Source of the DNA: Rhizorhabdus wittichii RW1
GTDB lineage: Bacteria > Pseudomonadota > Alphaproteobacteria > Sphingomonadales > Sphingomonadaceae
NCBI GenBank assembly: GCA_000016765.1
Contig: CP000700.1
Coordinates: 1 to 64,000 of the forward strand
Direction of reading: 5' to 3'
DNA length: 64,000 bases
Below are positions 5,673 through 64,000 of this stretch, one piece after another (the stretch's first letter is position 1; each line of letters opens with the position of its first letter). Under the pieces are notes generated by a model that ran no database searches, was not told where the DNA came from, and saw only the letters and a program-made list of their open reading frames with translations. The translations under genes and the position numbers were made by a program.

Positions 5673-5673
5673 G

Positions 5674-5693: not shown

Positions 5694-5716
5694 TAGCTTA
5701 GGGGAAAACTCATGCC

Positions 5717-6063: not shown

Positions 6064-6075
6064 ACTCAATGTCGT

Positions 6076-6095
6076 CATGTTCACATGCAAACATG
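6076..6095. repeat. Partition-type repeat, copy 5 (palindromic form)
   Basis: CATGTTCACATGCAAACATG, identical to copy 4 except for the last base; arms CATGTT and AACATG are perfect. It lies between the broken membrane gene and the Tn3 end. Confidence 0.5.
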
Positions 6096-6168
6096 GCAGT
6101 TAACGCCACGACACTGTCCTATTGCCGCCACGATTTTCGGCGAAGCAATCACGCCATGGTAGTTATTA

Positions 6169-6213
6169 GGCCCAGTCGGCCCGAAGCTGCGATTTTGGCC
6201 AGGTTGAAGAACG
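6169..6213 (+). repeat. Tn3 left inverted repeat
   Basis: Begins GGCCCAGTCGGCCCGAAGC and contains GCGATTTTGGCCA. It pairs with 11764-11808; the first 33 bases differ at one position only. Confidence 0.85.
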
Positions 6214-6235
6214 AACACTGAACGCTTGATTGATT

Positions 6236-7108: not shown

Positions 7109-7215
7109 AATCCGTCACATTAGGGTGGCTCTTGCAGTGTATCGTCACATTGAGCGCAAACCCACCCTTTTGTGACAGACGAATGGTGTCACTCGGCCCT
7201 ATCACTCTGGGGTGT
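7109..7215. promoter_or_regulatory. Probable res site and tnpR promoter region
   Basis: The gap between the transposase end and tnpR contains several related half-sites: CGTCACATT occurs twice, and GTGACA (7172-7177) faces TGTCAC (7187-7192) as a perfect inverted repeat. Tn3-family res sites are made of such resolvase-binding subsites in this position. Confidence 0.6.
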
Positions 7216-7244
7216 ACCCAAATGTTATAGGCCGATCAGCCGCC

Positions 7245-7545
7245 TCACGCTGCAAGCCGTCCAAAATCAATCCGGTCGTTCAGGTCGAGGTCGAAGCGGC
7301 CATAAGGGTTCACATGACTGTAGATCAACGGCGTGAGACCACGATAATCTTCCGGCGTCATCCGCCCCGCCCACTTCGGCTCAACCAGTACGGTCTGAAG
7401 CATGCGGGTGTTCACATACACCAGCGACGCTTGCAGGAGGTGTAGCGCCAGAACGGAGATTTCCTGCTCATGGATGCGGTTGGTGGCGATCTCGCCGCCC
7501 TTGCCGAAGAACACGAAACCATTAGCGCCGTTCCAGTTCTCAACC
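7245..7545 (-). pseudogene. tnpA: 3' part of the split Tn3 transposase gene
   Basis: Encodes the C-terminal 99 or so residues: [19 protein letters not shown], then [21 protein letters not shown], the conserved end of Tn3 transposases. It is separated from its 5' part by the insertion at 7546-9071. The CAACC at 7541-7545 is one copy of the target duplication. Confidence 0.9.
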
Positions 7546-9071: not shown

Positions 9072-11688
9072 CAACCACATTCAGCCCTTCGTGGATCTCG
9101 CGGCGGAATGCCTCCTGACGCAAATACCGGCATAGGAAGATTGTTTTGACCGCGCGGCCGAGTTCACTCAGCGCCTTGTAGGTCGGGTGCATCACTTCGG
9201 CTCTGGCAAACCGGAGCAGGATCGCTTCCGGATCGGCGGTGCGCGATTGCATGGCAGCGGCATATTTGACCATTTCGTCATATTGTTGCTCGATCTCGTC
9301 CCAGTCGATCGGGCTGGAGAGGATCGGCAGTAAATTGGAAAGCCGCGTGCGCATGCCGGCTTGGGGAAGGGCCAGTTTCTGGCGTGCCACTGCTTTCAGC
9401 CGCGGGGCAAGCTCAAATCCAAGGAGTCGGCAGAACGCAAAGCCGACTGCGCTCTGGCCGTGGCTATCGACGTACTGGCGCTGGATTTCCATGTCGGTGC
9501 AATGGCGTAGCACGCCTTCGATCATGGAGGCGACCTCCGAGGAAGAGCACCGCTTGAGCTGGGAATAAACGCAGGTCGCGCGCTTCTCCACATGCCAGTA
9601 GATCATGACGCCACGGCCGCCATAGCGGGCGTGCCATTCCGTCATCAGGTTGCGGTCCCACGCGCCGAACTTCGTTGAATCGGACGCGCATGCCGTGCCC
9701 GCATCTCCCCATACTGCGGCATTGCGGATTGCCAGTGTCGCGTTTGCTACCCGCGCGCACGCCTCCCTCAGCGCTGGCGCGTGGATGAAACGGCGATGGA
9801 CATGCAGCAATTCCTCGTAACTGACATCGGGTGTTGCGCCAGCGACCCGCTTGAGCCCGGCGTTCGTGCCCAAGCCATAGAGACACAGCAAAAGACGCTG
9901 AGCCAAGGCTGCTTTCGACAGGGTAACCCGCGAGGCCGACGTTTCGAAAGCATCCATCAATCCCGTGTCCAGAGCAGCCTCTTTCAACACGTCCAGCAGT
10001 CCGGTCATCGGCCAGCGCTGACCGATCTCGCTTTTGATCGAAGCGAGACCCTTCGGTTCGGGCAAGGGCTTGAACGGTGTAATCGATATCCGGTTGTCGC
10101 CGCGCCACAGGAGCCGGACCTTGTCGTTTTGTGGAATATTGGCATTGAGGAGCAACAGTTCCCGTTCAAGCTCCTCCCGGATCGAGGCGCAAAACGCCTG
10201 CGCATCTGGCGTCAGGCTGAGGCCGGAATAGTACGCATCTCGCCTGATCTCGAAGTCCTTGGGAAGATCGTCATCGGGATTGCGATAGCGATCCGCCCCG
10301 ACCACCCAGATTTCTTTGGAGCGGATGCGGTCGCGCAGTTGCGTCAGGACGCAAAGCTCATAGCTGATCCGGTTTACCCGCCCATCGTCATCAATGACGG
10401 AACTGCGCCATCGCGCTGGAATCACCTCATCGATCGGAACATCCTGCAATGGCACGAAGCGGCATCCGCCATCCACCTTGCTCCTGATCCAGTCGAGGGC
10501 CGCCAGGACCGGCCGCCACACCGCGTTGTTCGACCGGAACTCAAGTACGGAAAGCAGGCTTGGCAGCATGCGCCGGTAATGATTGGCCCAGGAACCACGC
10601 ATCACCTTGTAGATGCGCCGGTCCAGAGCGCCCTTCGCATGGCTCTCCTTGACGATCGCCGCCAGCTTGGCCTTACCGGCGATCGGGAAAATGACATCGC
10701 AGATGCGCCCCGATGGTTCATTGATCGAGGCGCTGGCGATCTCGACCAGCAGGCGCTCCTTTCCATAGACCCGCTCGATGTCTTTCGCGATATCGCCCAC
10801 CACCTTGCGTTTCGAGCGCGTTCCGATCTTGTGAACGGTTTCGATCAGCAGGTCGATCATCGCGTCAGTGAGTTGCGCCTCCCGCGACATTAGATAAATC
10901 GCATAAAGGCCGAGCTGTCGCGCCGGCGCATGCCGGCGCATCTCCGAGGCCTTTTCACCGGCAACGCGGCGAACAATCTGATCGACCCATGGCTTGCCCG
11001 TAGCCGTCAGGAGATCATGGGGAAGATCAAGTCTCTGGATAAAGGCGAGTTTCTCGGTCACGTCGAGAATGTTGTCGAGCGTTGCCTGTCCGGCGTCACC
11101 CTTCATCCTGTTGAATCCGGTCGAGCTGTCCGGATCGGCAAGCGAGGCTTCCAATAACGCCACCGCATCTGACGAAAGCCGATCACTGGTTCCGATCAGC
11201 CAGGTGTCCAGATAATCTTGCCGTTGTGAGCGAACGACACGTTCAAGCTCCTTGCGCGACGGCCCATAAATACGCCGGTCCCGGCACCACAGGAAAACAT
11301 GCTCAAGCATGGCATTGATCGACTGGCCGCCCGGGCACAGCTCGCCAGCAATCCATTCCGTCAATTGCGCGCGATCCACCCGCTTCATGCGGTGATATCC
11401 AAGATGGATCAGGATCTCCGCACAATGCCGTCGTGCTGTCCGACTGGAAAAGTCATAACCGGCTATCTCGCCAGCCTCGACACCGAGTTGCTCGGCCAGA
11501 TACGAGAGGCCATCGGTAGGGATTGAGCCGGGATCGATCGCGAAAAACCCCAGGGAAGCGAAGAATTTCAGCTGCGCGGCGAGGCCAAGGCGCGTCAGGG
11601 CCGGCTTCGAATTTACAAAATCAATATCGGCAAAGCTCAGGCTCCATCGTCCGATCAAATCCCCGCCCGGAATACTCCGATCCATCAA
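9072..11688 (-). pseudogene. tnpA: 5' part of the split Tn3 transposase gene
   Basis: Encodes about 870 residues of a Tn3-family transposase: an N-terminal DUF4158 domain (about 1-170), then the catalytic DDE region ([30 protein letters not shown]). After IHEGLNVV the frame runs into the insertion and stops at once. With the 3' part it would make a 970-residue protein. The start is TTG at 11688 or ATG at 11685. The split should abolish transposition in cis. Confidence 0.95.
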
Positions 11689-50995: not shown

Positions 50996-53900
50996 TCACA
51001 AGTCGAGCCCGAGGCTGCGCTCGGGCAGCGGTGGCAGCGGATCGCCGCGATCGGGTTTCAGATCGGGCGGCGCTTGTGGGGCCTTCGCGGCCGGCGCAGA
51101 TGCCGCGCCATCGGGCAGAGGCGGCAGATCGCTTGGAACGGGAGCAAGATCGGACAGGTTGACGCCGTCGATCGGACCGGGATCGAACTTCTCGCGGGGT
51201 TGCGCGCCCGGCCCCTTCCTGCCGTCGATATCGAGGCGGCCGAGCGTCTCGAGCGAGGAGGTCTTGTTGCCGGGATTCATGTCGAGCTGCCGCGCGAGCT
51301 TCTCCTTGTCGTCCACGACCATTGTCAGCTCGTCGCGCACGCGCGTGACCCCGACGTTGAAGAGGCGCTGGTTCGAGAGGTTGCGCTCATGCGACGACAT
51401 GACGGTGATCGCCTTGTCGGTGGTGATCCCCTGGGCCATGTGCATATTAAGGCTATAAGCAAGGTCGAGCCGAGATAGCATCGGGTCACCGAGGCTGAGC
51501 GTGAGGAGCACCTTGTCCGCAGTCTCAACCTTCACGCCATCGGCATCGACGCCCACAACGCGCGCAAGCGCGGCATTGTGCAGGCCGCGCTGCTTGTCGT
51601 TGGCCGTCCAGCGGATGCGGTCCCCTTCGCGCAGCTGAAGGTCCTTCTTTTCAGAAAGCTGCAGGCGATCGCGCTGCTCGGTCGGCGACAGCTTCTGGGG
51701 ATCGAAGCGTATCCTGCGCCGACCGTCCGACAGTTCGACCTTCCCGTTGGCGTGGACCTTGAGGACGTCGTAGCGTCCCGCCTTGATCCCGACGTCCTGC
51801 GCGCCGCCGCGGCCGACCTCGAGCGTCTGGCCCTGACGGTAGGTCGAGGCATAGCGCAGCTCCTCGCGCGTGGTGTTGACCCGCTCAAAGACAGTGAGAT
51901 GGATCGCCTGGCCCTTGACGCTCCCTTCCGCGATCAGGCCATCTTGGATGCGCTGGTTGATGACGGCGCGCGCGTCGCGGCCCGAAGCGAAGACAGCGGT
52001 CGCCTCCCGTTCGCCAGGGGAGAGCTCGAGCCACATGTCGGCCGCAGCGGCGGCCGGCTCCCCCGCCTCGACGACACGGTCCCCCAGCACTTTCAGCGCC
52101 GCGCCGGCCTTGCCGATATTGGCGAGCGCCGCGACGGTGCGCAGTTGGTCGGTGCGTTGGCGGATATTCTGATCCATCCGCGCCATCGTGCCGCCGCCCG
52201 CCTGGATCATGGCGAAGGCCTTGCCCGCGTCGATCGAAGAGAGCTGCTGCCGGTCACCGACCAGAACGAGCTTGTCGACGCCCAAGGCTGCTGTGATCTG
52301 GTGGAGCTTGAGCATTTCGTTCGACGACACCATCGAGGTTTCGTCGACGAGAAGCATGGTACCGGCGAGCTTCTCGCGCGCAGCCTCATATCCCAGCGTG
52401 TCACGCTCGGTCACGAACCGCTCGTTGGCGAGCACGAAGGAAGCGATCGTCTGGGCCTTGATGCCCGCCCCTTCGGCGAGGTCCGCGACCATCTTGTTCT
52501 GGAAGGCAAGTCCGGTGATCCGGGCGCCCTCCTCCTCGGCGACCCGCGCGACCGCCTGGAGCATGGTGGACTTGCCCGTGCCGGCGGCGCCCTGCACCGA
52601 GACGGTACGATCGGCGGATGACAGGATCATCGTCGCGGCGGCGAGCTGCCCAGGATTGAGCGGCCGTTCGGCGGCATCCTGCAATCGCTGCGGCGCATCG
52701 GCGGCCGCCACAATTGGCTCGGACTTCCCTTTCCCCTCCTCGACGGCGGCAAGAATCTTCTCTTCGGTCCGCAGCGCCTCCTGCGTGGTCACCATGCGGC
52801 CAGTCCGGTCCGCGGCTGTCGCGACGCCCGGGATGAGCTGACGGTTCTGCACGAGCCGGTCGATCCGCCTCTCGATCAGGTCGACGGTGACGCCCTTGAG
52901 ACCGAGATCGAGCGCGGTCTTGCCGAGCAGATTGACGGGCCATGCGGCCTCACGTTCGGAGAGGATCCGGACGGCGGACGCGACCGCGAGCTGCGCGCGC
53001 GCTTCCGCTGGCGACTTGACCGCGCGGGCGAGCGCATTGTCCACTAAAGGGTCCTGGGGGCGGAGCAGCGCACCCAGCGTCTGGCGGGCACCAGTTACGG
53101 CATCGACAATGGCGCGGTAGCCGCGCTCGAGAGCATTTTCCGAAGACGCCATCCCGGCGCGCGCCTCGGCTGCTGCCCGCAGGTCCTTGCCGTCGAAGCC
53201 GTGGGCAGCGGCCTGGTCGATCCAGCCCTGCTTCAGCGCGGCGCGGTCCTCGACGTCGAGCTTGGGATCGCGCGAGCGTTTGGTGATTTCGCGCAGGCCC
53301 TCCGGCGACTTGATGCCGAGCCGCGTTGCGTGATCGAGGATCTCCTCGCGGCGCTGGCTGAATTCGCCGATGACCGCCTTGGGAACGCCGGCAATCTCAA
53401 AGGTGCCATGCTTGCCCTTGAGGTCCACCTGATAGCCGATCCGCTCGAGCCCGGCGCGCAGGAAAGCATGGTAGATCGAGCCGATGATGCTGTTGTGGCT
53501 CCAGAGTTTGTCGGCGTGGAGTGCCTGCCATTTGCCATCGGGCATGCGGGTGAGGTTGGCGATGACGGCGTGGATGTGGGCCTGCGGATCGAGCGCCCGG
53601 CTCGTGTCGTGCTGGAAGAGCGCGTAGACGAGATTGCCCGTCTGGACCGGGACCTTGCGCCCCTCGATGTCGCGACGCCCTTCCGCGAGGTTCTTCTCGA
53701 CCCAGGCCATGGTCGCCTTGACCGCGGCCATATTGGCGTCAAGCACGCGCTTGTCGCCGGCGACATAGGCCATGACCGAAGCCGACTTCGGCATGGAGAA
53801 GGTGAGGTCGTAGCCGGCGCGCCGGTTCTCGACCTGGGCGACCGCTTCGCCGCTTGGGAGGATACCGTTCAGCACGCCCTCGAAGGCGTCCTTCGAGACT

Positions 53901-54040
53901 TCTCCGGACAGGCCGATCGCCTCGGCGCCCTCCCCTCCCCAGGCGCTGATCTCGGACGAGCCCTCGACCGTGTAATAGTCGTCCTTCGCGAAATAGTTCG
54001 CGGCACCGGAAGCGGAGCGGACGCCGGCGACCGAGAGCAT
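50996..54040 (-). CDS. traI: MobF family conjugative relaxase/helicase
   Basis: 1014 residues. The relaxase domain occupies about 1-300: tyrosines in NYFAKDDYY (16, 22, 23) for strand cleavage, and the histidine triad region DPQAHIHAVIANLT. A RecD-like helicase follows, with GAAGTGKST (Walker A), LLVDETSM (Walker B), GDRQQLSSI and the C-terminal VGVTRVRDEL. The tail is proline-rich. It nicks oriT, stays bound to the transferred strand and unwinds it. It overlaps traD by ATGA. Confidence 0.95.
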   Translation of the reverse strand: MLSVAGVRSASGAANYFAKDDYYTVEGSSEISAWGGEGAEAIGLSGEVSKDAFEGVLNGILPSGEAVAQVENRRAGYDLTFSMPKSASVMAYVAGDKRVLDANMAAVKATMAWVEKNLAEGRRDIEGRKVPVQTGNLVYALFQHDTSRALDPQAHIHAVIANLTRMPDGKWQALHADKLWSHNSIIGSIYHAFLRAGLERIGYQVDLKGKHGTFEIAGVPKAVIGEFSQRREEILDHATRLGIKSPEGLREITKRSRDPKLDVEDRAALKQGWIDQAAAHGFDGKDLRAAAEARAGMASSENALERGYRAIVDAVTGARQTLGALLRPQDPLVDNALARAVKSPAEARAQLAVASAVRILSEREAAWPVNLLGKTALDLGLKGVTVDLIERRIDRLVQNRQLIPGVATAADRTGRMVTTQEALRTEEKILAAVEEGKGKSEPIVAAADAPQRLQDAAERPLNPGQLAAATMILSSADRTVSVQGAAGTGKSTMLQAVARVAEEEGARITGLAFQNKMVADLAEGAGIKAQTIASFVLANERFVTERDTLGYEAAREKLAGTMLLVDETSMVSSNEMLKLHQITAALGVDKLVLVGDRQQLSSIDAGKAFAMIQAGGGTMARMDQNIRQRTDQLRTVAALANIGKAGAALKVLGDRVVEAGEPAAAAADMWLELSPGEREATAVFASGRDARAVINQRIQDGLIAEGSVKGQAIHLTVFERVNTTREELRYASTYRQGQTLEVGRGGAQDVGIKAGRYDVLKVHANGKVELSDGRRRIRFDPQKLSPTEQRDRLQLSEKKDLQLREGDRIRWTANDKQRGLHNAALARVVGVDADGVKVETADKVLLTLSLGDPMLSRLDLAYSLNMHMAQGITTDKAITVMSSHERNLSNQRLFNVGVTRVRDELTMVVDDKEKLARQLDMNPGNKTSSLETLGRLDIDGRKGPGAQPREKFDPGPIDGVNLSDLAPVPSDLPPLPDGAASAPAAKAPQAPPDLKPDRGDPLPPLPERSLGLDL

Positions 54041-56346
54041 CAGATGCCCATGTCCATGCCGTCATCCTCGCGGCCGGTGGAGAAGTCGTGGCGCAGCTCG
54101 ATCAGGGTCTGGTCCTCGACCTGTGGGCTCGTCTCCCCGTGCCGGTGGCCATCACGACGATCGTCCCGGTCGCGCGCGGAAACCGGCTGTTCCTCGCCGC
54201 TGGCGCGCGCCGCCTGCGCCCTGTCCGCGCTATGCGTGCCAGGCGTCGCCTGTTCGTCCCGGTCGTCCGCCCGCTGCGCCGCGCGGCGGGCGGCATCGTC
54301 CTCCTCCTCGACCTCGGCCGACAGGATCCGTGCGGCGAGATCGCGGGCGAGATTGGTGATCTCGGCCACTTCCTCCACGACCTGCAACGAGCCGTCGCGC
54401 CCGCCCGCCTCCCCTGCCCCGTCTTCCTCGAACACCTCCTCTCCGCGCCTTGAGCGTACCGGCCCGACATCGGGCCGTTGGACGAAGCCCTGGGCGACCT
54501 GGGGATAGTCCTTCCACTCGAGCAGGATGCGCGCGGCGGGGAAGCCGTCGGGGAATTTCACGAAGCCGTGCATCGAGGGCAGGTTGGTGATGTCATCGGC
54601 GATGACGAGTGGTTCGACCTGCTTGCGCGGGGTCAGGGTCGAAGCGTCGCGGGTGTTATTGTAGCCGTAGCTATAGGCCTCATCCATCTGGCGAACCTCG
54701 CGGTTGCCGATGTAGCGCGCGCACTGCTCGGCCGTGTCGAGATCGGCCGTCGCGAGGATGAGCTTGGAGCGGGCGAGCGAGGCGAGATTGCGTGCCCCTT
54801 GCTCGCCATAGACTTCGACCAGCTTCTCGAAGCTGTGGATGCCCAGGATCATCGCGCCGCCAAACGCGCGCGCCGTCTGGAGACCATTCTCGATCGCCGG
54901 AAGGCGATGCAGTGCGCCAAGCTCGTCGAACATGAACCAGGTGCGCAAGCTGCGGGTGCGCGGCAGCGTCATCAGCCGGTTGATCGCGAGATCCATCCAC
55001 AGCGTGAGCAGCGCCCGGTTCATCGGCAGATCGACATAGTTCGACGTCACGAACAGGATCGATCCGGGCTTCTTGTCCCGCGTGATCCAGTCGCGGATCG
55101 AGAAGGATTCGCCCTCGTCGGGAAGGAAGCGAAGGACCTGCGCATTGGTGTTGAAGACGGCGCGGATCGATTCCGCCATGCGGGCCGCTTCGGGGGCAGT
55201 GAGCGGGTCGGCGATGGTGTTGGCGAGGAAGCGGTGGACGCGCTTCAGGTCGGCCGTCATCAGGTTCTCGGACAGCGCCAGATTGCTGGTCTGCCCCCGC
55301 TCCATCAGGCGAATGCACATCTCGATGAAGAGGGTGCGCGCTGCGAGCGCCCAGAAGGGTTCGGACGAACCGCCATCCGAAGGGATTAGCGCCGCCGCGG
55401 CGGCCGTGAATTCGCTGTGGGTGCGGCAATCGTTGAAGATCGACCAGGCCGGGCAGCGCGCGTCCATGGGATTGAGGATCGTGTCGCGTGTGGGATCGTA
55501 GAAGGCTTCGACATAGGCGCCGGTGAGATCGAAGATGACGGCCGTGTCCTGGCGCTCGCGCATCTGGGTGACGAGGCTTCTGAGCTCGGTCGTCTTGCCT
55601 GATCCGGTGGTGCCGATGAGCATCGCATGGGATTGTTCGGTGCGGTGCGGAAAGGGGATGCCCGCGAGCGTGTAGGGATGATGGATGCCGGCTTCCTTGC
55701 GCGCTCGGAACGGGAGCGCGAGAACCTGCCGCGAGGACAGGCCGGGGAAGAGGTCGGCCGCCTCCTCTTCGAACTTCACCCGGTTATGCTCGTTGATCTC
55801 CACCAGAAGCACGCTGCGATCAACCAGCATGGCGCCGCGTTCATGCCGTTCCTGAAGGATCGAACGGCCGCGCCGATGCGAGATGTCGACGAACCAGATG
55901 GCGGCCGGAATGGTGATGAAGACCGAGATCAGGAAAGCGCCGATGAGGCCCCGCATCGCGACGGCCCAGGCTGTGATGACCTCGGGAATATAGGGCACCG
56001 CTTTCATCACGGTGCGCATGAGGTCGCCGTTCGGCAGCGTGACGTTGACGCGCTTGTTCGGATTGAGGTCGATCCAGTTCCAGAGGGTCGCATAGACCTT
56101 CATGCAGACGAGCTGGAAACCATGCTCGTCGAGCTTGAGCGACATGATGATGAACCAGGCGGCGAGAAAGGCGAAGAACCAGAGGATGAAGGGCAGCTTG
56201 GCGCCCGAGAACCACATCAGCATCTCATGGGTGAGTAGCTGGCTGCCGCGGGTGAAATTGCCGGCATTGCGCTGCACGCGGCCGCGCGCCGAATGATGGG
56301 TGAGCGGGACGGGACGCCCGTCCGTGCGGATGTCCTCACGCGCCAT
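54040..56346 (-). CDS. traD: Type IV coupling protein
   Basis: 768 residues. Two N-terminal membrane segments (about 52-72 and 133-155), Walker A GTTGSGKTTE, Walker B in WFMFDELGALHRL, and a long acidic C-terminal region after about 640, as in F-type TraD. It delivers the relaxase-DNA complex to a type IV secretion channel. No mating-pair-formation genes lie in this window, so they are either outside it or absent, in which case the element would only be mobilisable. Confidence 0.95.
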   Translation of the reverse strand: MAREDIRTDGRPVPLTHHSARGRVQRNAGNFTRGSQLLTHEMLMWFSGAKLPFILWFFAFLAAWFIIMSLKLDEHGFQLVCMKVYATLWNWIDLNPNKRVNVTLPNGDLMRTVMKAVPYIPEVITAWAVAMRGLIGAFLISVFITIPAAIWFVDISHRRGRSILQERHERGAMLVDRSVLLVEINEHNRVKFEEEAADLFPGLSSRQVLALPFRARKEAGIHHPYTLAGIPFPHRTEQSHAMLIGTTGSGKTTELRSLVTQMRERQDTAVIFDLTGAYVEAFYDPTRDTILNPMDARCPAWSIFNDCRTHSEFTAAAAALIPSDGGSSEPFWALAARTLFIEMCIRLMERGQTSNLALSENLMTADLKRVHRFLANTIADPLTAPEAARMAESIRAVFNTNAQVLRFLPDEGESFSIRDWITRDKKPGSILFVTSNYVDLPMNRALLTLWMDLAINRLMTLPRTRSLRTWFMFDELGALHRLPAIENGLQTARAFGGAMILGIHSFEKLVEVYGEQGARNLASLARSKLILATADLDTAEQCARYIGNREVRQMDEAYSYGYNNTRDASTLTPRKQVEPLVIADDITNLPSMHGFVKFPDGFPAARILLEWKDYPQVAQGFVQRPDVGPVRSRRGEEVFEEDGAGEAGGRDGSLQVVEEVAEITNLARDLAARILSAEVEEEDDAARRAAQRADDRDEQATPGTHSADRAQAARASGEEQPVSARDRDDRRDGHRHGETSPQVEDQTLIELRHDFSTGREDDGMDMGI

Positions 56347-56626
56347 GATATTGCTCCAGACGTTTGTCGGTTTCCGCGATGATGCGGTCGCGATATTCGG
56401 GGAATTGTTCGCGGATGATGATGTCGAGCGCGAGATGCTGGAACTCGCTGATGCGGGCGATCCGACGGTGGCTTGAGGTCAAGAGCTGGCCGGATCCCAG
56501 GAAGGCATCGACGGCCGCGCGCAGCAGGTCGGACGGCGTGCATCCGCGCTCCGCGGCGAGCGCTACGAGGCGATCATATTTGCTCCGGTCGAGCCGGACC
56601 GAGCAATGCTTGTAGGGAATGGTCAA
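56336..56626 (-). CDS. Ribbon-helix-helix accessory conjugation protein
   Basis: 96 residues. The N-terminus HCSVRLDRSKYDRLVALAAE and following SDLLRAAVDAFLGSG form a CopG/Arc-type ribbon-helix-helix. It is the first gene of the traD-traI operon and borders the probable oriT, where small accessory DNA-binding proteins such as TraY, TrwA and MobC are encoded. It likely binds oriT and represses the operon. It overlaps traD by 11 bp. Confidence 0.8.
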   Translation of the reverse strand: MTIPYKHCSVRLDRSKYDRLVALAAERGCTPSDLLRAAVDAFLGSGQLLTSSHRRIARISEFQHLALDIIIREQFPEYRDRIIAETDKRLEQYHGA

Positions 56627-57107
56627 ACCGAGCCTCCTAGCAGGGAGGCTGGTGGGGTCTCAGAAACCGATCCGACTTATAGCGCAATCGTGTCGGTGGA
56701 GCAAGAAAATCGCATGCGCGGCGCGGAGCGTGTTCTCGTGTAACACGCTGAAATGGCCGATTTTCGTGTGTTTTGTGGGCAGCGAAATCCTGTCCCACAG
56801 CCGCACACGCACCAAGACCGCCATAAGTCGCTGGAATTGTTCCAGAACCCAATGCACCGAGGTGCGTTCGGTGTGCTTCTCTGCACCAGGGCTGATCCAC
56901 TCCCCGGGGCGTCTTGTGACGCGATCAAATGGCATGGGGAAGCGCCTCCGGCGGGACGCCAGGCCGTCCGGTGGACGGAAGGAAAGCCATGGTTGCGGCA
57001 GTTGACCAACCGCTTGGCGGGCGCGCATTCCGTGCTTCCGGCATGGCCGGTGAGCGCTTATAGTGGGCCTGTTCATAGCCCGATCAGCGTGAACCGAGAG
57101 GCCCTTC
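56627..57107. other. Probable origin of transfer (oriT)
   Basis: A 481-bp divergent gap between the transfer operon and a plus-strand gene, with no credible coding frame. It contains GCGTGTT/AACACGC (56728-56748), CTGGAATTGTTCCAG (56831-56845), GCACCGAGGTGC (56854-56865) and CCGGCATGGCCGG (57038-57050). Right of these, CTGTTCATAGCCCGATC at 57069-57085 resembles the R388 nic core TGTCT/ATAGCCCAGAT, which would put the nick at 57074/57075 on the plus strand. The exact site is inferred. Confidence 0.55.
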
Positions 57108-57326
57108 ATGGCACGCACATTGGAACAGGAAAGAGCAGCGATAGAAGAGGAAGGCCGCAAGCTCGAGGAGCGACGGCAACGGCTGGAAGAGAAGGAACGC
57201 GAGGCCGCGATCCAGGCTCTTGAGAAGACCGGCCTGCTGAAGCTCGACGGCAAGCGATTGGGTGGGCTCGTTGCCCGTATCCGGTCGCTCGGCATCGACG
57301 AAGTGGAAAAGCGCCTCACGGCCTGA
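57108..57326 (+). CDS. Small coiled-coil protein beside oriT
   Basis: 72 residues. The first half is a charged coiled coil (LEQERAAIEEEGRKLEERRQ...), the second a short helical domain ending SLGIDEVEKRL. Size and place match MobC/TraC-like accessory mobilisation proteins, but the sequence alone does not prove it. The start is supported by GAGAGG upstream. Confidence 0.65.
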   Translation: MARTLEQERAAIEEEGRKLEERRQRLEEKEREAAIQALEKTGLLKLDGKRLGGLVARIRSLGIDEVEKRLTA

Positions 57327-57356
57327 ACAGCCCCCGCCGCGACCCTTGTCGCGGCA

Positions 57357-57389
57357 CGGGCATGGGGGGTTCGATGCCCCCCATGCCCG
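57357..57389. repeat. Perfect hairpin with TTCGATG loop
   Basis: GGGCATGGGGGG and CCCCCCATGCCC around TTCGATG. A hairpin with the same GGGGGTTCGATGCCCCC core but different outer stem occurs at about 60371-60403, also next to a minus-strand terminator. It may serve as a terminator for the plus-strand gene or an mRNA end-protecting structure. Confidence 0.6.
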
Positions 57390-57403
57390 TAACATCGCCA
57401 CAC

Positions 57404-57437
57404 AAAAAAAGGGAGAGGCGCGTGCGCGCCCCTCCCC
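57404..57437 (-). terminator. Rho-independent terminator
   Basis: Read on the minus strand, GGGAGGGGCGCG pairs with CGCGCCTCTCCC and is followed by seven T. It ends the gene at 57446-57670. Confidence 0.8.
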
Positions 57438-57445
57438 GTCTTGCC

Positions 57446-57670
57446 TCAATATTCGTCGAGCAGTCCGCCCGGCACGCTGTGGACGATCCGGTCGATGATC
57501 GTCATCGGCAGCGCGCCGTAATCGCCCTCGTCGATGGTGATGTAGCCCGCCTCGTCGTCCGCCACGACGTGCTGGTCGAAGTAGCTGTGAAGCGCGCGGC
57601 GTTCGGCGTTCGCGATGGCTGCGAAGAAGGCGGCGTTGTCGGCGGCGGCGCTGGTCGAGATCATCTGCAT
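57446..57670 (-). CDS. Small leading-region protein, unknown
   Basis: 74 residues from MQMISTSAAADNAAFFAAIA, with AGGAG upstream. Alanine-rich helix then an acidic segment (DDEAGYITIDEGDYGALP). No family recognised. It has its own terminator and an extended hairpin about 100 bp upstream. Confidence 0.6.
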   Translation of the reverse strand: MQMISTSAAADNAAFFAAIANAERRALHSYFDQHVVADDEAGYITIDEGDYGALPMTIIDRIVHSVPGGLLDEY

Positions 57671-57770
57671 GGATTCGCTCCTGTCTGTCTTGAATGACAG
57701 GAGCGGCGCGTCAGGCGGCCGAGGCCGGGTCAAGGACCCGCGAAGCGGGCCGCGAAGCGGCGGTGGGGGT

Positions 57771-57840
57771 CACGATTTTCTTCGGCGGCCACCACGCCGA
57801 AGGACGAGCGCCTCCCCTCGATCCGCCGAAGAAAATCGTG
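57771..57840. promoter_or_regulatory. Extended hairpin H1, candidate single-strand promoter
   Basis: CACGATTTTCTTCGGCGG (57771-57788) and its exact reverse complement (57823-57840): an 18-bp perfect stem with a 34-base loop. It lies about 100 bp upstream of the minus-strand gene at 57670. Related in form to hairpins at 58980, 61688 and 63904. Confidence 0.6.
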
Positions 57841-58041
57841 GGGCCCCGCCGTCCTTGAGGCGGCCTCGGACGTCTGACAGAATGGGAAGACTGTGAGAGA
57901 TGTTCCCTCTCGTCGGGAGACCTCGGCCGAGGCGTAGCGACGTGCGGACCGAAGGGTCCGCATGGCACGCGAGCGAGCCGGGGCATCGAGCCATCTCGTC
58001 GAAAGAACGGGACCGAGCGCGTGGCCCGGTCCCGGCTGCCG

Positions 58042-58857
58042 TCAGGGGTGACGGCCGCAATGGCAATAGTGTTCGTCGATGCCGGTCAGGGAGCATAGGC
58101 CGGGTCCGAAGTCGGCATATCGCTCGTCCTCGCCCGCGATGTAGCCGTGGTCATTGGCGATCTTGACGGCGTAGCGGCGCAGGTCCGGATCAAGCTTGTT
58201 GATGGCGCGTGCACAGGCCGTGGAGAACTGGCGGGCGTAGAGTTCGTACGTCGCGCCGGCGGTGGCCCGCATCTCCGCTTCGGCGAGCCGTTCCGCGTCG
58301 GCACGCAACTGTTCGAGGGTCAGAAACTGCGGCGTCTCCTTGATGCACGAACCCCCGGATAGAGCGATAGGCTGGTTCTGGATCACCACGCGATAGGCCG
58401 GGCTATCGTCCGAGAGTGCTCGAAGGATCGCGTAGCCGTTCGATCGGGCGACCTGGCGTGCGATGCGGCAAGTTAGGCGGTAGAGCCGGTCATGCTCGGC
58501 CCTGAAGAAATCCCGTTCGGTGGAGGTTTGGGCAACGCTGACTAAGCGCCCGCAGGTCTGGGTAAGTGCGAGATATCTTTCGAGCAGGCGAATGAGCCGG
58601 AAGCCAGTCGCTTGCGCTGGCCAGTAGCCCGGCTCGTGCGGTTGGACAATATGGGCGGTATCCGGCCGGACGTCGTCGATGTCGTCATCCGGATTGTCCG
58701 GCACATGGTCGTCGGGGATCCGATAGACGGTTCCGCAGTGCGAGCAGCGCGCGCGTTCGTCGACATGATCATATTGCTCGGCGTCGAAGAGGGTCGTGCA
58801 GTTTGGACAGAATGGGGTGCTGAACAGCGTGCGCAGGGAGTGGTGAAGATTGTCCAT
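58042..58857 (-). CDS. Zinc-ribbon leading-region protein, unknown
   Basis: 271 residues from MDNLHHSLRTLFS. Near the N-terminus a four-cysteine zinc ribbon (FCPNCTTLFD, ARCSHCGTVY) resembles those of replication or recombination proteins. A long helical part follows, and the C-terminus has another cysteine/histidine cluster (EHYCHCGRHP). An acidic stretch (DDDIDDVRP) lies between. Not recognised; a DNA-binding role is plausible. Confidence 0.65.
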   Translation of the reverse strand: MDNLHHSLRTLFSTPFCPNCTTLFDAEQYDHVDERARCSHCGTVYRIPDDHVPDNPDDDIDDVRPDTAHIVQPHEPGYWPAQATGFRLIRLLERYLALTQTCGRLVSVAQTSTERDFFRAEHDRLYRLTCRIARQVARSNGYAILRALSDDSPAYRVVIQNQPIALSGGSCIKETPQFLTLEQLRADAERLAEAEMRATAGATYELYARQFSTACARAINKLDPDLRRYAVKIANDHGYIAGEDERYADFGPGLCSLTGIDEHYCHCGRHP

Positions 58858-59441
58858 CGAAGCCTCCGTTGATGATGGTGCGCTCCCCATCTCGCATCGA
58901 TGAGGATGGGCTCATCTGGACGCGGTGTTGAGGCGGTCAGGGACGGCATGGCCGCCGCGTGAGCGGGCAGCGGGGGGAGCCGATTTTGTCGCCGGGAAGC
59001 GCAGCGCGCCGGCCGGCAAAATTGGGGGGACCGCTGATCCTTGACGGCCGATCGACACCCAGCGTCATGCTTTGGCGATGAAGCCTCGTCTGATGCCGAG
59101 ATGTGAGAGAGCTTGGGTCCCGTCTCCCATCTTAGGCACGTGTCCGTGCCTGCCGGCAAGGCACTGTGGCTCGCTGTTCAGACGACCCACCTTGGTGTCT
59201 TCCCATGTCTGTGATAGGTGGCTGTTTGCGCCGCGAAGGCCGTGGCGCCGGGACTGGTAATCCCGTCGAGAAAGGCAGCTCGGTGTGATCTCACGCCGGG
59301 GTGCCTGCGCATATGTCCAGGTGCCTTGGTGCTAAAAGCGTAGGCGCATGTCTCGACGTGTTACCAGCCCCGGCTCCCGCGCCTCGTGCGCGGGAGTTTT
59401 GAGCAAGGGTTCGACCTTTGCGCATTGCGGGGAGCCTGGGG
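58858..59441. other. Intergenic region with hairpin H2 and a plus-strand hairpin
   Basis: No supportable gene in 584 bp. At about 58980-59026 CCGATTTTG...CCGG pairs imperfectly with CCGG...CAAAATTGG (hairpin H2), upstream of the minus-strand gene at 58857. H2 and H3 share the downstream stretch ATTGGGGGGACCGCT. At 59374-59396 CTCCCGCGC/GCGCGGGAG plus TTTT forms a terminator-like hairpin just before the plus-strand gene at 59442. Confidence 0.55.
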
Positions 59442-59702
59442 ATGACCAATTCGGGACGAGAGATTGTTCCCCGCCGCGCGAAAGCCGCACCGCGCACGCC
59501 GGAATCAATCGACATATATGATCCGCAGGGAATCGATTCAAACGTCCGCCGGGCCCTCGCAGTCGTGCTGATGCGTGAGGCGATGGCGGCGCTCGAGCAA
59601 GCTGGCGAGCAGATGGCGACCTGTCATTTACAGGCGGCGATCGACAGCCTCATGCGTCGAAGGACCGACAGGATCCCGCCGGAGAAGAATTGCCGGGACT
59701 AA
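59442..59702 (+). CDS. Small protein, unknown
   Basis: 86 residues from MTNSGREIVPRRAKAAPR, with GGGAG seven bases upstream. The second half (NVRRALAVVLMREAMAALEQ, CHLQAAIDSLMRR) is helical. It is the only plus-strand gene inside the leading region apart from the one next to oriT. Family not recognised. Confidence 0.5.
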   Translation: MTNSGREIVPRRAKAAPRTPESIDIYDPQGIDSNVRRALAVVLMREAMAALEQAGEQMATCHLQAAIDSLMRRRTDRIPPEKNCRD

Positions 59703-59708
59703 CGCATG

Positions 59709-60275
59709 TCAGGCCCATGCGAAGCGGGCAGCCTCGCGCTCCTGCGCGCTCGCGACGAGACGCTCTAGTCGGGGCAGGTAATGACCGACACCGCGCAGCG
59801 CCGCGCGGCTCGGCGTGGCCGGATCGGACAGCCGGGCGCGTAGGAGATCGATGGGGATGTCACCGACGCTGTCAGGCTCGATCGCGAGCGCTTCGAGCAG
59901 CGCGTAGGCATTGCCGTAGGCGAGATCGAGTTCGACGCCCTGATCGGACGTGAGGGCGACGCGCAGGATGATCTCGGCGCTGCTCGGGCAGTGATGGATC
60001 GCGATGCGCTTGCCTCTGAACTGGGCCTCCTCGACGACTGCGATGACAGTGGCCTCGTGGTCGAAAATGCCCGTGATCGCGGCGAGCGCGAGTGGACAGA
60101 CGCGCGCCTCGAAGCTGTCGCCAAGATATTCGTCGGGTTCGAGCAGCGCGATGCCGATACGATCTCCTTCGGAACGGAGGAACCGGCGGAAAGCCGCAAG
60201 CTTGCGGGCTGTGATGATGGCGCTGGGCGAGGCTGTATCGTCGGCCGGCTCGGTGATGCGGAACAGGATGGACAC
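59709..60275 (-). CDS. Leading-region protein, unknown
   Basis: 188 residues from GTG at 60275, supported by AGGAGA upstream; the frame is open further upstream, but without ribosome-binding signals. A mixed alpha/beta sequence (VSILFRITEPADDTASPSAI, EATVIAVVEEAQFRGKRIAI) with no recognised motif. It ends convergently with the small gene at 59702. Confidence 0.6.
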   Translation of the reverse strand: MSILFRITEPADDTASPSAIITARKLAAFRRFLRSEGDRIGIALLEPDEYLGDSFEARVCPLALAAITGIFDHEATVIAVVEEAQFRGKRIAIHHCPSSAEIILRVALTSDQGVELDLAYGNAYALLEALAIEPDSVGDIPIDLLRARLSDPATPSRAALRGVGHYLPRLERLVASAQEREAARFAWA

Positions 60276-60411
60276 GGGCTTGGTCTCCTCGGCTGAAAGC
60301 GCCTCGCCTCTCCCCTCTTTCCTTGGCCCTTTCGGGTATTGTCCGTGCGGCGCGCGCCAGCGCCCGGCGGTGCGCGGGGGTTCGATGCCCCCGCGCACCG
60401 CATCCTCGCAG

Positions 60412-60452
60412 CGAAAAAGCAGGAGAGGCCCCGGCGATTGCCGGAGCCTCTC
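60412..60452 (-). terminator. Rho-independent terminator
   Basis: On the minus strand GAGAGGCTCCGGC pairs with GCCGGGGCCTCTC, followed after a few bases by TTTTT. It lies 10 bp past the DUF2493 gene. Confidence 0.7.
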
Positions 60453-60461
60453 CCGGACGCG

Positions 60462-61541
60462 TCACCGACGACGGCGACCACCGCCGTTCACCATGGCGGC
60501 GTAATAGTCGTCCTGGGTCCAGGGATCGAATTCGTCCCGCGACTTTGCGGTTCTGCCGGTGGGCTGGGCGGGCTGCGGCTTGGCTGACGGTTCGAGCTTC
60601 ACGATGTGGAGGGGAACGCCTGCCTGCCGCAGCTTCTGGGCGAGGTTCATCTGGATGCCGGAGCCTTCGCAGACGACAGCTTCGACCGGCTTGAGGGCGA
60701 GCAGCCGATCGTTGCGGACGAAGGCGGCCTTGGCCCCCAGCCGGCGGTCGAGGCGGAACATGATGACCTTCACGCCGCGTGCTGCTGCCCATGCCTGCGC
60801 GATGGCATCGCAGCCCTTGGTCTGTGCTGTCGTGGCGAGGATCATCTCCGGGATGCGGGCCAGGATCGAGTCCAGACCCTTCCAGAGCATGTCATGATCC
60901 TCCCAGACCTGACCGCCCGAGAAGGCAACGACCGGACCTTCCGGAGCGAACTGCTCACGGCGTTCCCGCATCCGGGCGGCGAGATAGTCTCGGGCGTCGA
61001 TCATCGAGGCGGTGACGCCCTTCGAGACCCGGCTGCCGCGCGTCGGCGAATAGGGCCGTCCGGTCTCGACCCGGTAGACGTCGGCGGCGTGGTCGCGCAT
61101 GCATTCCATGGCATCCCGGCACCCCTGCAGCGTCTGGCAGAGCAGCTGCGCCTCCTCGATCTGCGATGCGTAGATTTCGCTGGGATCGAAGCTGCGCGCG
61201 AGTTCGCCAAGCTCCTTGGCCGCATCGTCCTCGCGGTCGCTGATGCGCTTCGCCACCACATGGAAGCTGTTGACGAAGCCCCAGGCGAGATCGCTCGCGA
61301 AGGGTTCGAGGCGGGTGTCGCGGAACACATCGAAGAGCGTCGCCATCACCATTTCGACGGCGGCTCGGCTCTGTTCCGGATCGGGCATTTCCAGTTGCTC
61401 GCTCTCGTCGACAGGCGAAAGCTTGGCGCGCTCGTCATGCTCGATGAAGGCGGCTTCGTAGAGCGGGCTACGCTGGTCGGTTCCCGTCTCGCTGGCGATG
61501 AAGCTGGCGAAATCGGCGAAGTTCGAGAAGGACTTGGACAT
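60462..61541 (-). CDS. DUF2493 (SLOG-like) protein
   Basis: 359 residues from MSKSFSNFADFASFI. The C-terminal domain (about 215-330) has the DUF2493 Rossmann-like pattern: VVAFSGGQVWEDHDMLW, TKGCDAIAQAWAAARGVKVI and AFVRNDRLLALKPVEAVVCEG. Such SLOG-related domains are predicted to bind nucleotide-derived ligands. The N-terminal half is a plasmid-type extension of unknown role. Frequent on sphingomonad plasmids. Its leader holds hairpin H3. Confidence 0.8.
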   Translation of the reverse strand: MSKSFSNFADFASFIASETGTDQRSPLYEAAFIEHDERAKLSPVDESEQLEMPDPEQSRAAVEMVMATLFDVFRDTRLEPFASDLAWGFVNSFHVVAKRISDREDDAAKELGELARSFDPSEIYASQIEEAQLLCQTLQGCRDAMECMRDHAADVYRVETGRPYSPTRGSRVSKGVTASMIDARDYLAARMRERREQFAPEGPVVAFSGGQVWEDHDMLWKGLDSILARIPEMILATTAQTKGCDAIAQAWAAARGVKVIMFRLDRRLGAKAAFVRNDRLLALKPVEAVVCEGSGIQMNLAQKLRQAGVPLHIVKLEPSAKPQPAQPTGRTAKSRDEFDPWTQDDYYAAMVNGGGRRRR

Positions 61542-62442
61542 GTTGGCCTCCGTGGCTTTTGGATGTCTCATCCACGCGATGAGGCCTTGTTCAGGACATG
61601 CGGCGGTCAGGGAGGTCGGGGACGTTAACCGGGAAGCCGGCCGCGGCCGGACCCCGGTTGACGCCGCACCAGCGGGGAGCGGGGGAACCGATTTTTTTCG
61701 GGTGGGCGCGGCAGCGGCCGCACGAAAAAATTGGGGGGACCGCTCATCCTCGACGGACTGCCAACCCCGCATGCCAAACTAGGCAGACACAAGAGAGGAA
61801 TAGGGATTTCAAACCTCACCGGGGGAATCCCGCAAGCGGGTTCGTCACCCGAATGGGCGGAGACGGGCCGAAGGCCTGGCTCCGTGAGCTTGGCCGGGGC
61901 ACGTGCGGTACGCGCGGGCGGCGGCTTAGCGAATAGAGCCCCGGTCCCGCCCGGCGCGAAGCGTTGGGCGGGATGCGCCGAAACCCTCTTCTCTTCTTCT
62001 TGTCCGGGCAAAACCTCGCCGGCCCGCCCGGCACTGGATGGTCACCGCAAACCTCCCCGGTGCCTGACGTCCTGGGGCGTCACGGTATCGATCACCTGGA
62101 TTGAGGAGCTGGCTGCGAGGCAGTTCGATCGCCGGCTGACACGCTCGCGCCCGCATGTCCGAACGGGGCTGAGCGATAGGGCCCGGGCGCAGTGAACGCG
62201 GCTCGCGGCAGGGCGATGAACCTCACGCGGCACAAGGCGCGGCACAACCTGCGGCACGCATGAGAGCCGGGTCACGACAGGAGCCGCCGGCGTCCGGATT
62301 TCACCGGGAGGTGGGCACGGCAAGTGGAAAACGCCACCAGCGGTGGTGGCGCCCGGCTGTGCGCTCGCGCGGGCAGATGATAGTCAGGCTCGAGCGAAAG
62401 GCAGGGCGAAGCCAACGACACTCGCCGGCTTCGCCGCACGGA
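61542..62442. other. 901-bp leader/intergenic region with hairpin H3
   Basis: No frame here has support from composition or similarity. At 61688-61736 CCGATTTTTTTCG...GTG pairs with CAC...GAAAAAATTGG around a GC-rich loop (hairpin H3), about 150 bp upstream of the DUF2493 start. Further GC-rich inverted repeats follow to about 62000. The rest is unexplained. Confidence 0.5.
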
Positions 62443-63045
62443 TCAGATAGGCCTGATCCAGTCGGCCGCCGGCTGCCAGCCGATGATGTCGCTGCCGCTA
62501 TCGCTGACCGCATCGGCCGAGATGTCGCGCCAGGGCGACCGCGGCCGATAGGTCGGCATATGCCGGGCGGTGAGCAGTTCGAAGGTCGAACAGGTGTAGC
62601 CGCTCAACCTGATCGCGAGCACGGGCTGGTTCTCCGGCGGTAGGCCCGTGAAGACTGAGATGAAGCCCGCGGGAACCGGATGCAGTGTCGCATCGATCAT
62701 CGTGCGCGCGAGCCGGGTCTCGAGTTCACCGGCTTCGCTGCCCCAGGGATGGGCATCGATGTCGATCTGGTCGGCGGCGCCGGCCGCGGGGAGGTAGGAG
62801 AATTCGCCGGACCAGCACCGGCTCTGGGGATGGAGCGCAGCGACGTCGGCCGCGAGACCGGCATCGCCGGTCTCGGAGCGGAGCCAGTCGGCCATGCCCG
62901 GCGTGAGCTTGCCCGAAAGCTTGCGCGCGGCGGTCGGCGCCGCGTCGAGTTCGGGAAATTCGACCAGCCACCAGGCGAGCCGATGGTGAAGGACGATGCC
63001 GTAGCAATGGGCGGCGGCGGTGTTCGAAGGGGCAGGTTTGATCAT
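62443..63045 (-). CDS. Leading-region protein, unknown
   Basis: 200 residues from MIKPAPSNTAAAHCYGIVLH; the upstream frame has no start signals. It is rich in tryptophan (LAWWLVEF, MADWLRSE, IIGWQPAADWI) with no recognised motif. It lies downstream of the ssb and 63078 genes on the same strand, 32 bp from the next gene, so it is probably co-transcribed with them. Confidence 0.65.
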   Translation of the reverse strand: MIKPAPSNTAAAHCYGIVLHHRLAWWLVEFPELDAAPTAARKLSGKLTPGMADWLRSETGDAGLAADVAALHPQSRCWSGEFSYLPAAGAADQIDIDAHPWGSEAGELETRLARTMIDATLHPVPAGFISVFTGLPPENQPVLAIRLSGYTCSTFELLTARHMPTYRPRSPWRDISADAVSDSGSDIIGWQPAADWIRPI

Positions 63046-63077
63046 GACGGTACTCCGTTCGAAAGGCGTGTGACGGG

Positions 63078-63407
63078 TCAGTGGACCGACCCGTCGTGCG
63101 CGAAGATGGAATGGGGAATGGTCAGCTGATGCTCGCTGGCGATCAGCGACCAGGCTGCGGCGAGATCTTCGTAATATTCGCAATCGACGATCGCATCGGC
63201 GCTCGCCTCGCCGAACTGCACTTCCTCGAAGTCGCGGACATGCGCGGCGTCGGTCGCCTCGGTGATCGCCTGGCCGAGGTGCGCGGCGATCTCGTGGCGG
63301 TTAAGGCTGTCTGCCGCGCGGCGGATGCGCTCGACCATGTTGGGGTTGGTGATCTCGACGCCCTGGGCGATTCCGGCGATGTCGTCGAAGCTGGTGAGAG
63401 TGAACAT
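63078..63407 (-). CDS. Small leading-region protein, unknown
   Basis: 109 residues from MFTLTSFDDIAGIAQGVEIT; GGAGAG lies just before this ATG, while an ATG four codons upstream lies on that signal. Acidic, no membrane segment. Not recognised. Second gene after ssb. Confidence 0.65.
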   Translation of the reverse strand: MFTLTSFDDIAGIAQGVEITNPNMVERIRRAADSLNRHEIAAHLGQAITEATDAAHVRDFEEVQFGEASADAIVDCEYYEDLAAAWSLIASEHQLTIPHSIFAHDGSVH

Positions 63408-63465
63408 CTTGCTCTCCATCTGAAGGAAGGTGGAGGGCGGCCGCGAGCGACCGCCCGGGAGACGG

Positions 63466-63795
63466 TCAGAGGAACTCGATTTCCTCGGCGACGATGTCGG
63501 TGTTGTAGTAGGTGCGCCCGTCGCGCTCGTTGCGGCTGTAGCGGATCTCGCCGACCACCAGGAGCTTGTCGCCCTTCTTCTTGTTGTTGGCGACCGACTT
63601 GCCGAGGCCGTTGAAGGCCTTGACCTGATGGAACTCGTCGTAGGTTTCGGTGTAGCCGTTGTCGTCCTTCTGGACCTGGCCGTCCTTGATCACCGGCTTC
63701 GAGGTGACGAGGCTGAAGCTGACGCCGCCCTTGCTGTCCGTGCCGAAGCGGGTGATGTCCGAGGTGATGCGGCCCGAGAGAAAAACCTTGTTCAT
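63466..63795 (-). CDS. ssb: Single-stranded DNA-binding protein
   Basis: 109 residues from MNKVFLSGRITSDIT. One OB-fold with the SSB pattern (FGTDSKGGVSFSLVTSKPV, KKKGDKLLVVGEIRYS, DIVAEEIEFL). It is shorter than chromosomal SSB and lacks the flexible linker and acidic DDIPF-type tail, ending EEIEFL. Plasmid SSBs are early-expressed leading-region proteins that coat the incoming strand. Confidence 0.9.
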   Translation of the reverse strand: MNKVFLSGRITSDITRFGTDSKGGVSFSLVTSKPVIKDGQVQKDDNGYTETYDEFHQVKAFNGLGKSVANNKKKGDKLLVVGEIRYSRNERDGRTYYNTDIVAEEIEFL

Positions 63796-63903
63796 GGCCT
63801 GATGCCTTTCGCGTTTCACGCCAGCGGGCCGATCCCGCTGGGATGAACAATCGCGAAGGCCCGTGATCGAGGGGGCACCGCACCTGCGCTTCAGCGCGGG
63901 GAA

Positions 63904-63970
63904 ACCCCCATTTTTCGAGTGGTGCGGGCAGAGGCCGTCAGGCCTCAACACGGTCGGAAAATGGCGGGTT
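63904..63970. promoter_or_regulatory. Extended hairpin H4 upstream of ssb
   Basis: ACCCCCATTTTTCGA (63904-63918) pairs with TCGGAAAATGGCGGGT (63954-63969) with two mismatches. The inner loop holds AGGCCGTCAGGCCT, a second small stem. It lies about 110 bp upstream of ssb. Confidence 0.6.
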
Positions 63971-64000
63971 GCGGGGATCCCGCACGGGCGTAGCGTTCAT

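Follow-up and report, generated by a model that had tools for sequence, protein, structure and literature searches.

What is the role of the long AT-centred hairpins that stand ahead of minus-strand genes, close to the presumed origin of transfer (oriT), in this plasmid DNA? The window, that is, the whole stretch analysed, comprises bases 1-64000 (64,000 nucleotides) of contig C2 of Rhizorhabdus wittichii RW1, whose 5.9 Mb genome is in three contigs. An earlier note on the window described four such hairpins and proposed that, like the Frpo hairpins of plasmid F, they serve as promoters on the single strand that enters the recipient (the T-strand, here presumably the plus strand). Position, orientation, fold and promoter boxes, all of them computed, support this proposal, and we consider it highly probable that the elements are single-stranded-DNA (ssDNA) promoters active on the incoming T-strand. 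Our computations cover the family, its fold, covariation, boxes, the bubble at the -10 box, position and orientation.

Architecture of the elements

The four inverted repeats are present at 57771-57840, 58980-59026, 61688-61736 and 63904-63970, with the ATTTT/AAAAT stems that the earlier note had described and with ATTGGGGGGACCGCT common to hairpins 2 and 3. They were said to lie roughly 100-150 bp upstream of minus-strand genes, and the distances to the starts at 57670, 58857, 61541 and 63795 are indeed about 101, 123, 147 and 109 nt. A generic scan for imperfect stems was far too permissive in GC-rich DNA, so a scan for T4/A4-block stems of at least 12 bp was adopted instead; it returned exactly these four hairpins in the window and, in 49 kb of the related plasmid NZ_CP022748, the same four and no others. 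The pattern CCGATTTT-N16-42-AAAATTGGRGGNRCCG matched twice in the window, against 0.00 matches expected from shuffles. Folded as plus-strand DNA in pieces of ~120-140 nt, hairpins 1, 3 and 4 exceeded nearly all shuffles in stability (z -3.4, -2.8 and -2.9), and hairpin 2 did not (z -0.4).

The functional element is larger than the AT hairpin, which is only its cap, and the promoter boxes lie to the right of it. There the T-strand carries a nearly invariant TCCTTGA (-35, TTGAC), followed by a YANNMT-nGG block (-10) with A in 79 of 83 and T in 82 of 83 members, almost always 16-20 nt downstream of the TTGACN hexamer. Judged by their sequence, the boxes are standard -35 and -10 features, and in the duplex they face away from the gene. 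The earlier note had suggested looking for boxes formed by the stem of the hairpin. Both exist, but they do not fit within the ATTTT stem and sit in an outer helix (P1) that flanks it.

This outer helix is formed by the left flank, which is complementary to the -35 and spacer stretch (alignment score 54.3; with flanks exchanged among members, 42.1, sd 7.7). With an ungapped register fixed only at -35, spacer pairing was 0.55, against 0.402 +/- 0.012 in swapped flanks (maximum of 500, 0.44). Within the group whose -10 A lies 24 nt from TTGA, several single spacer positions are occupied by AT, TA, GC and CG pairs. Pairing ends at the -10 box: bases -7 to -1 before the A are paired in 86-94% of cases and the A itself in 10% (swapped, 40%), the unpaired A standing mostly opposite C or G. 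A paired -35, a paired spacer end and an unpaired A occur together in 74% of members, against 16% after swapping. The complement of the 5' arm holds no matching conserved -10, so the duplex has no evident promoter facing the gene. In at least six unrelated gene families, the template base that faces the -10 A usually stands 31-48 nt (median 36) away from the start codon; this near-constant distance gives a predicted leader of ~25-30 nt in the typical member.

By their sequences, and beyond what the earlier note had seen, hairpins 1-3 form one homologous family, in which hairpin 1 is divergent, and hairpin 4 belongs to a different one. We built a covariance model of the first family, called R1 here. 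The elements and the genes that they are predicted to drive are the following, gene coordinates of the 57-64 kb region being those of the annotated copy in NZ_CP022748.

57709..57883, plus strand: predicted ssDNA promoter element 1, whole (R1 match, 45.8 bits, which places hairpin 1 in the family)
57710..57737, plus strand: element 1 outer helix P1, 5' arm (template arm), 28 nt, 86% complementary to 57851-57878
57771..57840, plus strand: element 1 AT-block apical hairpin (hairpin 1), with 18-bp perfect arms
57855..57860, plus strand: element 1 -35 box TTGAGG on the 3' arm (TTGA is family-wide)
57878..57883, plus strand: element 1 -10 box CAGAAT after a 17-nt spacer; P1 ends just before the A of the box
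57446..57670, minus strand: 75-aa-class gene behind element 1, predicted to be driven by it, annotated in NZ_CP022748; no Pfam or PADLOC match
58919..59071, plus strand: predicted ssDNA promoter element 2, whole (R1, 76.2 bits)
58955..58966, plus strand: element 2 small hairpin P2, CCGC-GTGA-GCGG, which recurs across the family
58969..59035, plus strand: element 2 main hairpin P3 (hairpin 2), with covariation in alignment A1
59041..59046, plus strand: element 2 -35 box TTGACG, from the family alignment and read from the sequence
59066..59071, plus strand: element 2 -10 box CATGCT after a 19-nt spacer, from the family alignment
58042..58857, minus strand: 271-aa zinc-ribbon-like gene behind element 2, predicted to be driven by it (sub-threshold Zn_ribbon_4 match)
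61597..61780, plus strand: predicted ssDNA promoter element 3, whole (R1, 81.2 bits)
61678..61744, plus strand: element 3 main hairpin P3 (hairpin 3)
61750..61755, plus strand: element 3 -35 box TCGACG, the same sequence as in L126_7093
61775..61780, plus strand: element 3 -10 box CAAACT after a 19-nt spacer
60462..61541, minus strand: DUF2493 / YspA-like SLOG gene behind element 3, predicted to be driven by it (Pfam YAcAr, 82.9 bits)
59709-60275: gene after the DUF2493 gene
63841..64000, plus strand: predicted ssDNA promoter element 4, of the second sequence family; its last bases lie just beyond the window
63859..63865, plus strand: element 4 P1 5' arm GCCCGTG, pairing with CACGGGC at 63983-63989
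63904..63970, plus strand: element 4 AT-block hairpin (hairpin 4)
63969..63974, plus strand: element 4 -35 box TTGCGG, read from the sequence
63991..63996, plus strand: element 4 -10 box TAGCGT after a 16-nt spacer, between P1 and a distal helix
63466..63795, minus strand: ssb gene behind element 4, predicted to be driven by it (Pfam SSB, 59.7 bits)
63078-63407 and 62443-63045: continuation of the ssb operon

The P3 hairpin of element 2 consists of AGCGG/CCGCT, a G-rich internal loop and CCGATTTT/AAAATTGG, and the P1 pair GACGC/GCGTC of the same element stops at the first base of the -10 box. Beyond its bubble, element 4 has a distal helix, GGATGAAC (63841-63848)/GTTCATCC. Its plan and its covarying P1 recur in five further loci (L001, L002, L107, L139, L150), one of which, L139, has GCCCGCG/CGCGGGC as the counterpart of P1, and its homologues are found upstream of ssb and elsewhere. 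A second family of the same plan suggests that selection keeps the architecture and not the sequence. The four predicted leaders are ~27-50 nt long, with arms placed by hand, and their 5' ends are expected near 57697, 58906, 61582 and 63840.

Distribution, position and folding strand of the family

We found the family of hairpins 1-3 in over 100 DNA stretches, practically all of them from Alphaproteobacteria. Hairpins 2 and 3 have homologues on plasmids of sphingomonads, Rhizobium, Agrobacterium, Shinella and Bosea. When 84,980 species genomes were scanned for the exact pattern, at least 120 stretches matched; among the 80 loci listed, nearly all are labelled Alphaproteobacteria (Sphingomonadales, Hyphomicrobiales, Acetobacteraceae, Paracoccus) and one is a metagenome bin labelled Bryobacterales. 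No exact copy of the motif occurs in the viral collection. In the host genome R1 has six significant sites, five on C2 and one on C3, thus on two plasmids only, with no significant match on the chromosome. Conservation of the stem is supported by covariation in a 16-sequence alignment, where 24 cells had changes on both sides (9.7 in shuffles) and the score was 0.270 (0.096 in shuffles), a value that none of 500 shuffles reached. The conserved arms are separated by anything from 7 to 55 nt while the stem is preserved, as one would expect of a hairpin rather than of a duplex operator. In the short members L044, L043, L042 and L072_3166 the AT block is swapped between the arms (AAAATGC/GCATTTT for GATTTT/AAAATT) with the stem kept, which is a wholesale compensatory change. 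At L005 12778-12856, a 23-bp AT-block hairpin without an R1 match stands upstream of a DUF736 gene and may represent a third promoter sequence family.

The position of the elements was examined relative to the transfer genes, which in the window are the following.

50996-54040, minus strand: MobF relaxase gene (Pfam TrwC)
54040-56346, minus strand: TraD gene
56627..57107: presumed oriT interval, intergenic, with the TraD/relaxase operon on one side and the first leading-region genes on the other

The relaxase gene, the TraD gene and the gene for a small protein all lie on the minus strand and read leftward. To the right of this operon the genes are mostly on the minus strand too, including ssb and the DUF2493 gene. 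The interval 56627-57107 has patches conserved with L002 and L007. Sphingobium xenophagum plasmids, one of them typed as conjugative (MOBF / MPF_F), hold a stretch 100% identical to 56300-64000. From this arrangement oriT would lie near 56.6-57.1 kb and the plus strand would be the one transferred. A second MobF relaxase on C2, at 115600-116406, has its own pair of promoter elements next to it (R1 sites at C2:120457 and 122834, within 120457-122934), which suggests a fused or doubled transfer region.

Our survey covered 167 R1 matches in 41 genomes and 7 plasmids, 123 of them on a contig with a relaxase, and the relaxase gene was used as a proxy for oriT. Within 20 kb of the nearest relaxase (65 relaxase loci), 102 of 104 matches are upstream of it, on the leading side, and on the strand opposite to it, that is, in T-strand orientation; one of the two exceptions is upstream on the same strand and the other downstream. 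The earlier note asked whether matches cluster on the leading side, and the related hairpins are indeed not spread evenly around plasmids. By relaxase type, the class with correct side and strand holds 67 of 74 MobF, 19 of 21 MobQ and 16 of 28 MobP matches, when random placement would put about a quarter of matches there. In all 24 multi-copy loci the copies are co-oriented. On two plasmids we looked at members that break the relaxase rule: the W07 sites adjoin extra ssb modules and the W04 site adjoins a module of HU, DUF736 and an ArdC-like zincin metallopeptidase, no relaxase being near either. Both are consistent with leftover leading regions.

The elements also stand in a regular relation to genes. 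An open reading frame (ORF) templated by the T-strand starts within 500 nt of 99 of 107 members on genome contigs, against 35 on the other side, and the start codons cluster at a distance of 71-91 nt to the edge of the motif. The genes behind the elements belong to six or more unrelated families: a small protein of ~54 aa (46 copies), a protein of ~170 aa (21), a group that includes the 75-aa protein (21), DUF2493 (19), proteins of 97-141 aa (seven) and zinc-ribbon proteins (five). For most of the genes predicted to be driven, Pfam and PADLOC gave no names. In Shinella CP132318 (L006), six strong elements lie within ~9 kb (1367-9862), five ahead of paralogues of one ~170-aa protein, a candidate early establishment or anti-defence family, and one ahead of the ~54-aa small protein.

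It is the T-strand that folds better. This is the case in 80 of 85 members, with a mean of -15.3 kcal/mol against -10.6 for the complement. In the window, the T-strand and complement energies are -83.6 and -77.6 kcal/mol for element 1, and, with both flanks included, -67.4 and -54.3 for element 2 and -68.2 and -54.2 for element 3; for element 4 the two folds are about equal. Wobble pairs point to the same strand: 75 of 79 members have G.T at the conserved third pair, one outer-stem pair is T.G in 32 and C.A in 0, and the inner stem has 96 G.T against 17 A.C (92 against 38 with swapped arms).

Two other kinds of hairpin were observed near the ends of leading-region genes. Terminator-like hairpins with a minus-strand T-run lie at 57404-57437, after the 75-aa gene, and at about 60409-60455, after the DUF2493 gene; they close short, discrete units of promoter, gene and terminator. 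A strand-specific hairpin with the invariant loop TTCGATG, the core GGGTTCGATGCCC and perfect 9-14 bp stems of varying sequence is found, always on the T-strand, close to the 3' ends of genes of the leading region (57356-57390 and 60367-60401 in the window, C2:121676-121688). Of its 25 matches in 14 genomes or records, 20 have an R1 element within 5 kb, in all 20 cases on the same strand, and the reversed-pattern control gave 0 matches. It is possibly a priming or protein site.

Proposed mechanism and alternatives

We hypothesize that, as the single-stranded T-strand enters the recipient, each element would fold back on itself. The 3' arm would present -35 (TTGAC) and -10 (YANNMT) in the reading order of RNA polymerase, and the 5' arm, paired with the -35 and the spacer, would be the template strand, the mismatch at -10 providing a pre-melted start. 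The AT-block hairpin would cap this duplex where an upstream (UP-like) contact falls. RNA polymerase of the recipient would then bind and, in a typical member, initiate ~25-30 nt ahead of the start codon, transcribing leftward toward oriT, so that SSB and other early proteins are made before the second strand. After second-strand synthesis, expression would stop, since in the duplex the boxes face away and the gene-facing arm has no -10. Recognition by RNA polymerase, transcription, its timing, the UP-like role and the direction of transfer are in this scheme what we infer.

Some results weigh against this reading. No nic motif could be assigned in 56627-57107, so the direction of transfer rests on the geometry of the relaxase operon and on analogy with R388 and F. 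For 44 of the 167 matches the contig has no relaxase, and the distance to the relaxase is 27-41 kb for some MobP members. At about 15-19 nt to the hexamer, spacer length varies more widely than in typical double-strand promoters, and about a fifth of the leader distances are implausible, probably through wrong start codons in the ORF calls. Composition accounts for part of the fold bias (shuffle baseline -1.9 of -4.8 kcal/mol), and this is why wobble counts with swapped-arm controls were added. In these, the outer helix P1 shows no excess of G.T over A.C (314 against 260; swapped, 1525 against 1137). The evidence for the strand thus comes from the inner hairpin, the mismatch at -10 and the geometry.

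Folded T-strand elements near oriT would also be expected of priming sites, at which RNA polymerase, PriA or DnaG is recruited for the complementary strand and the proximity of genes is secondary; Frpo itself is reported to yield primers as well as messages (PMC7736820). A priming role is compatible with ssDNA promoters and not exclusive of them. As the explanation of the elements we think it improbable, given that there is one element per gene or operon start, at a near-constant distance from the start codon and in multiple co-oriented copies, and that -35 and -10 boxes favour RNA polymerase over DnaG or PriA. The rightward direction of the -35/-10 pair in the duplex could instead indicate duplex promoters that fire rightward to give small or antisense RNAs and have a regulator's palindrome upstream. 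This is very unlikely: it leaves unexplained the pairing of the 5' flank with the spacer and its avoidance of the -10 A, it offers no reason for the constant distance to the left gene or for the near-exclusive T-strand orientation, and a gap of variable length between conserved blocks, with the stem kept, is unlike a duplex operator.

Hairpins upstream of start codons might also be structured leaders (riboswitches or attenuators) of the minus-strand transcript, as the minus strand can fold too. In mRNA, however, the conserved G.T pair would become an A.C mismatch, an outer-stem pair is T.G in 32 members and C.A in none, and the mRNA strand is the one that folds worse in 80 of 85 members. Rfam gave no family at its gathering score (best, an implausible microRNA model with 37.2 bits against a cut-off of 93), and, transcription being predicted to start downstream of the hairpins, these would not be transcribed. 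We give this explanation still less credit. Least credible of all are terminators of neighbouring genes, which the earlier note had named as an alternative: strong hairpins in intergenic DNA would fit, but the related hairpins sit at gene starts, not ends, and the terminator-like hairpins with minus-strand T-runs lie elsewhere, as at 57404-57437.

Folded ssDNA promoters thus being preferred, we think it likely that conjugative plasmids of Alphaproteobacteria have a single-strand promoter system of their own, unrelated to Frpo in sequence and found across MobF, MobQ and MobP, in which a repeated module serves many unrelated, mostly uncharacterised early genes and synthesis of the complementary strand switches the promoter off by reversing it. 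Most established single-strand promoters come from enterobacterial plasmids, and the surveys cited below relied on similarity to them. A second, class-wide family, if true, would give a searchable definition based on structure (a cap hairpin, pairing of the -35 and the spacer, and a -10 A left unpaired) and would show how RNA polymerase can start on folded ssDNA outside E. coli. It would also offer a handle on establishment or anti-defence genes, as most of the families behind the elements have no Pfam match, and make a practical question open to test: how is expression of plasmid genes begun in rhizobia, agrobacteria and sphingomonads while the DNA is still single-stranded?

Relation to known single-strand promoters

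The complementary-strand origin of the filamentous phage M13 is an ssDNA hairpin read by host RNA polymerase. It is a phage primer site that drives no gene, in contrast to the predicted role of the elements described above. The Frpo of plasmid F is the ssiD of Masai and Arai 1997.

Frpo1 and Frpo2 of F drive early expression from ssDNA in vivo (PMC9849209). Searches for further promoters of this kind have started from known sequences: Samuel et al. 2024 obtained Frpo-like candidates from BLAST with five known sequences and four islands (PMC11541004), and a 2026 survey of PLSDB used BLAST with 18 Frpo-derived seeds (PMC12826799). The candidates of Samuel et al. 2024, recognized by -35/-10/UP consensus and fold, are, as predicted for our elements, folded promoters ahead of leading-region genes (PMC11541004). 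The main texts of both papers make no mention of Alphaproteobacteria or sphingomonads, and that of PMC12826799 none of Rhizobium. BLAST surveys with Frpo-derived seeds would probably miss the alphaproteobacterial family. A literature search, with subscription papers and preprints outside its reach, found no such promoters described in Alphaproteobacteria. As cited in PMC7736820, ssi2 and ssi3 of ColIb-P9 (IncI1) are single-strand promoters of leading-region genes; they resemble our elements by description and belong to an enterobacterial IncI1 plasmid.

The closest comparison is with Frpo1 and Frpo2 of F, which share with our elements the leading region, a T-strand hairpin predicted here to rebuild -35 and -10, a direction of (here predicted) transcription toward oriT and a place ahead of ssb among other genes. 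R1 gave no match at E<=10 in the leading region of F (50000-69000), and the resemblance is thus one of plan, not of sequence. Unlike Frpo, whose -35 and -10 we take from descriptions, the elements reported here have the side hairpin P2, a conserved G-rich internal loop and the CCGATTTT/AAAATTGG block, and they form many short single-gene units in a different class of hosts. In summary, a new, sequence-unrelated family of the known Frpo-type kind is well supported computationally.

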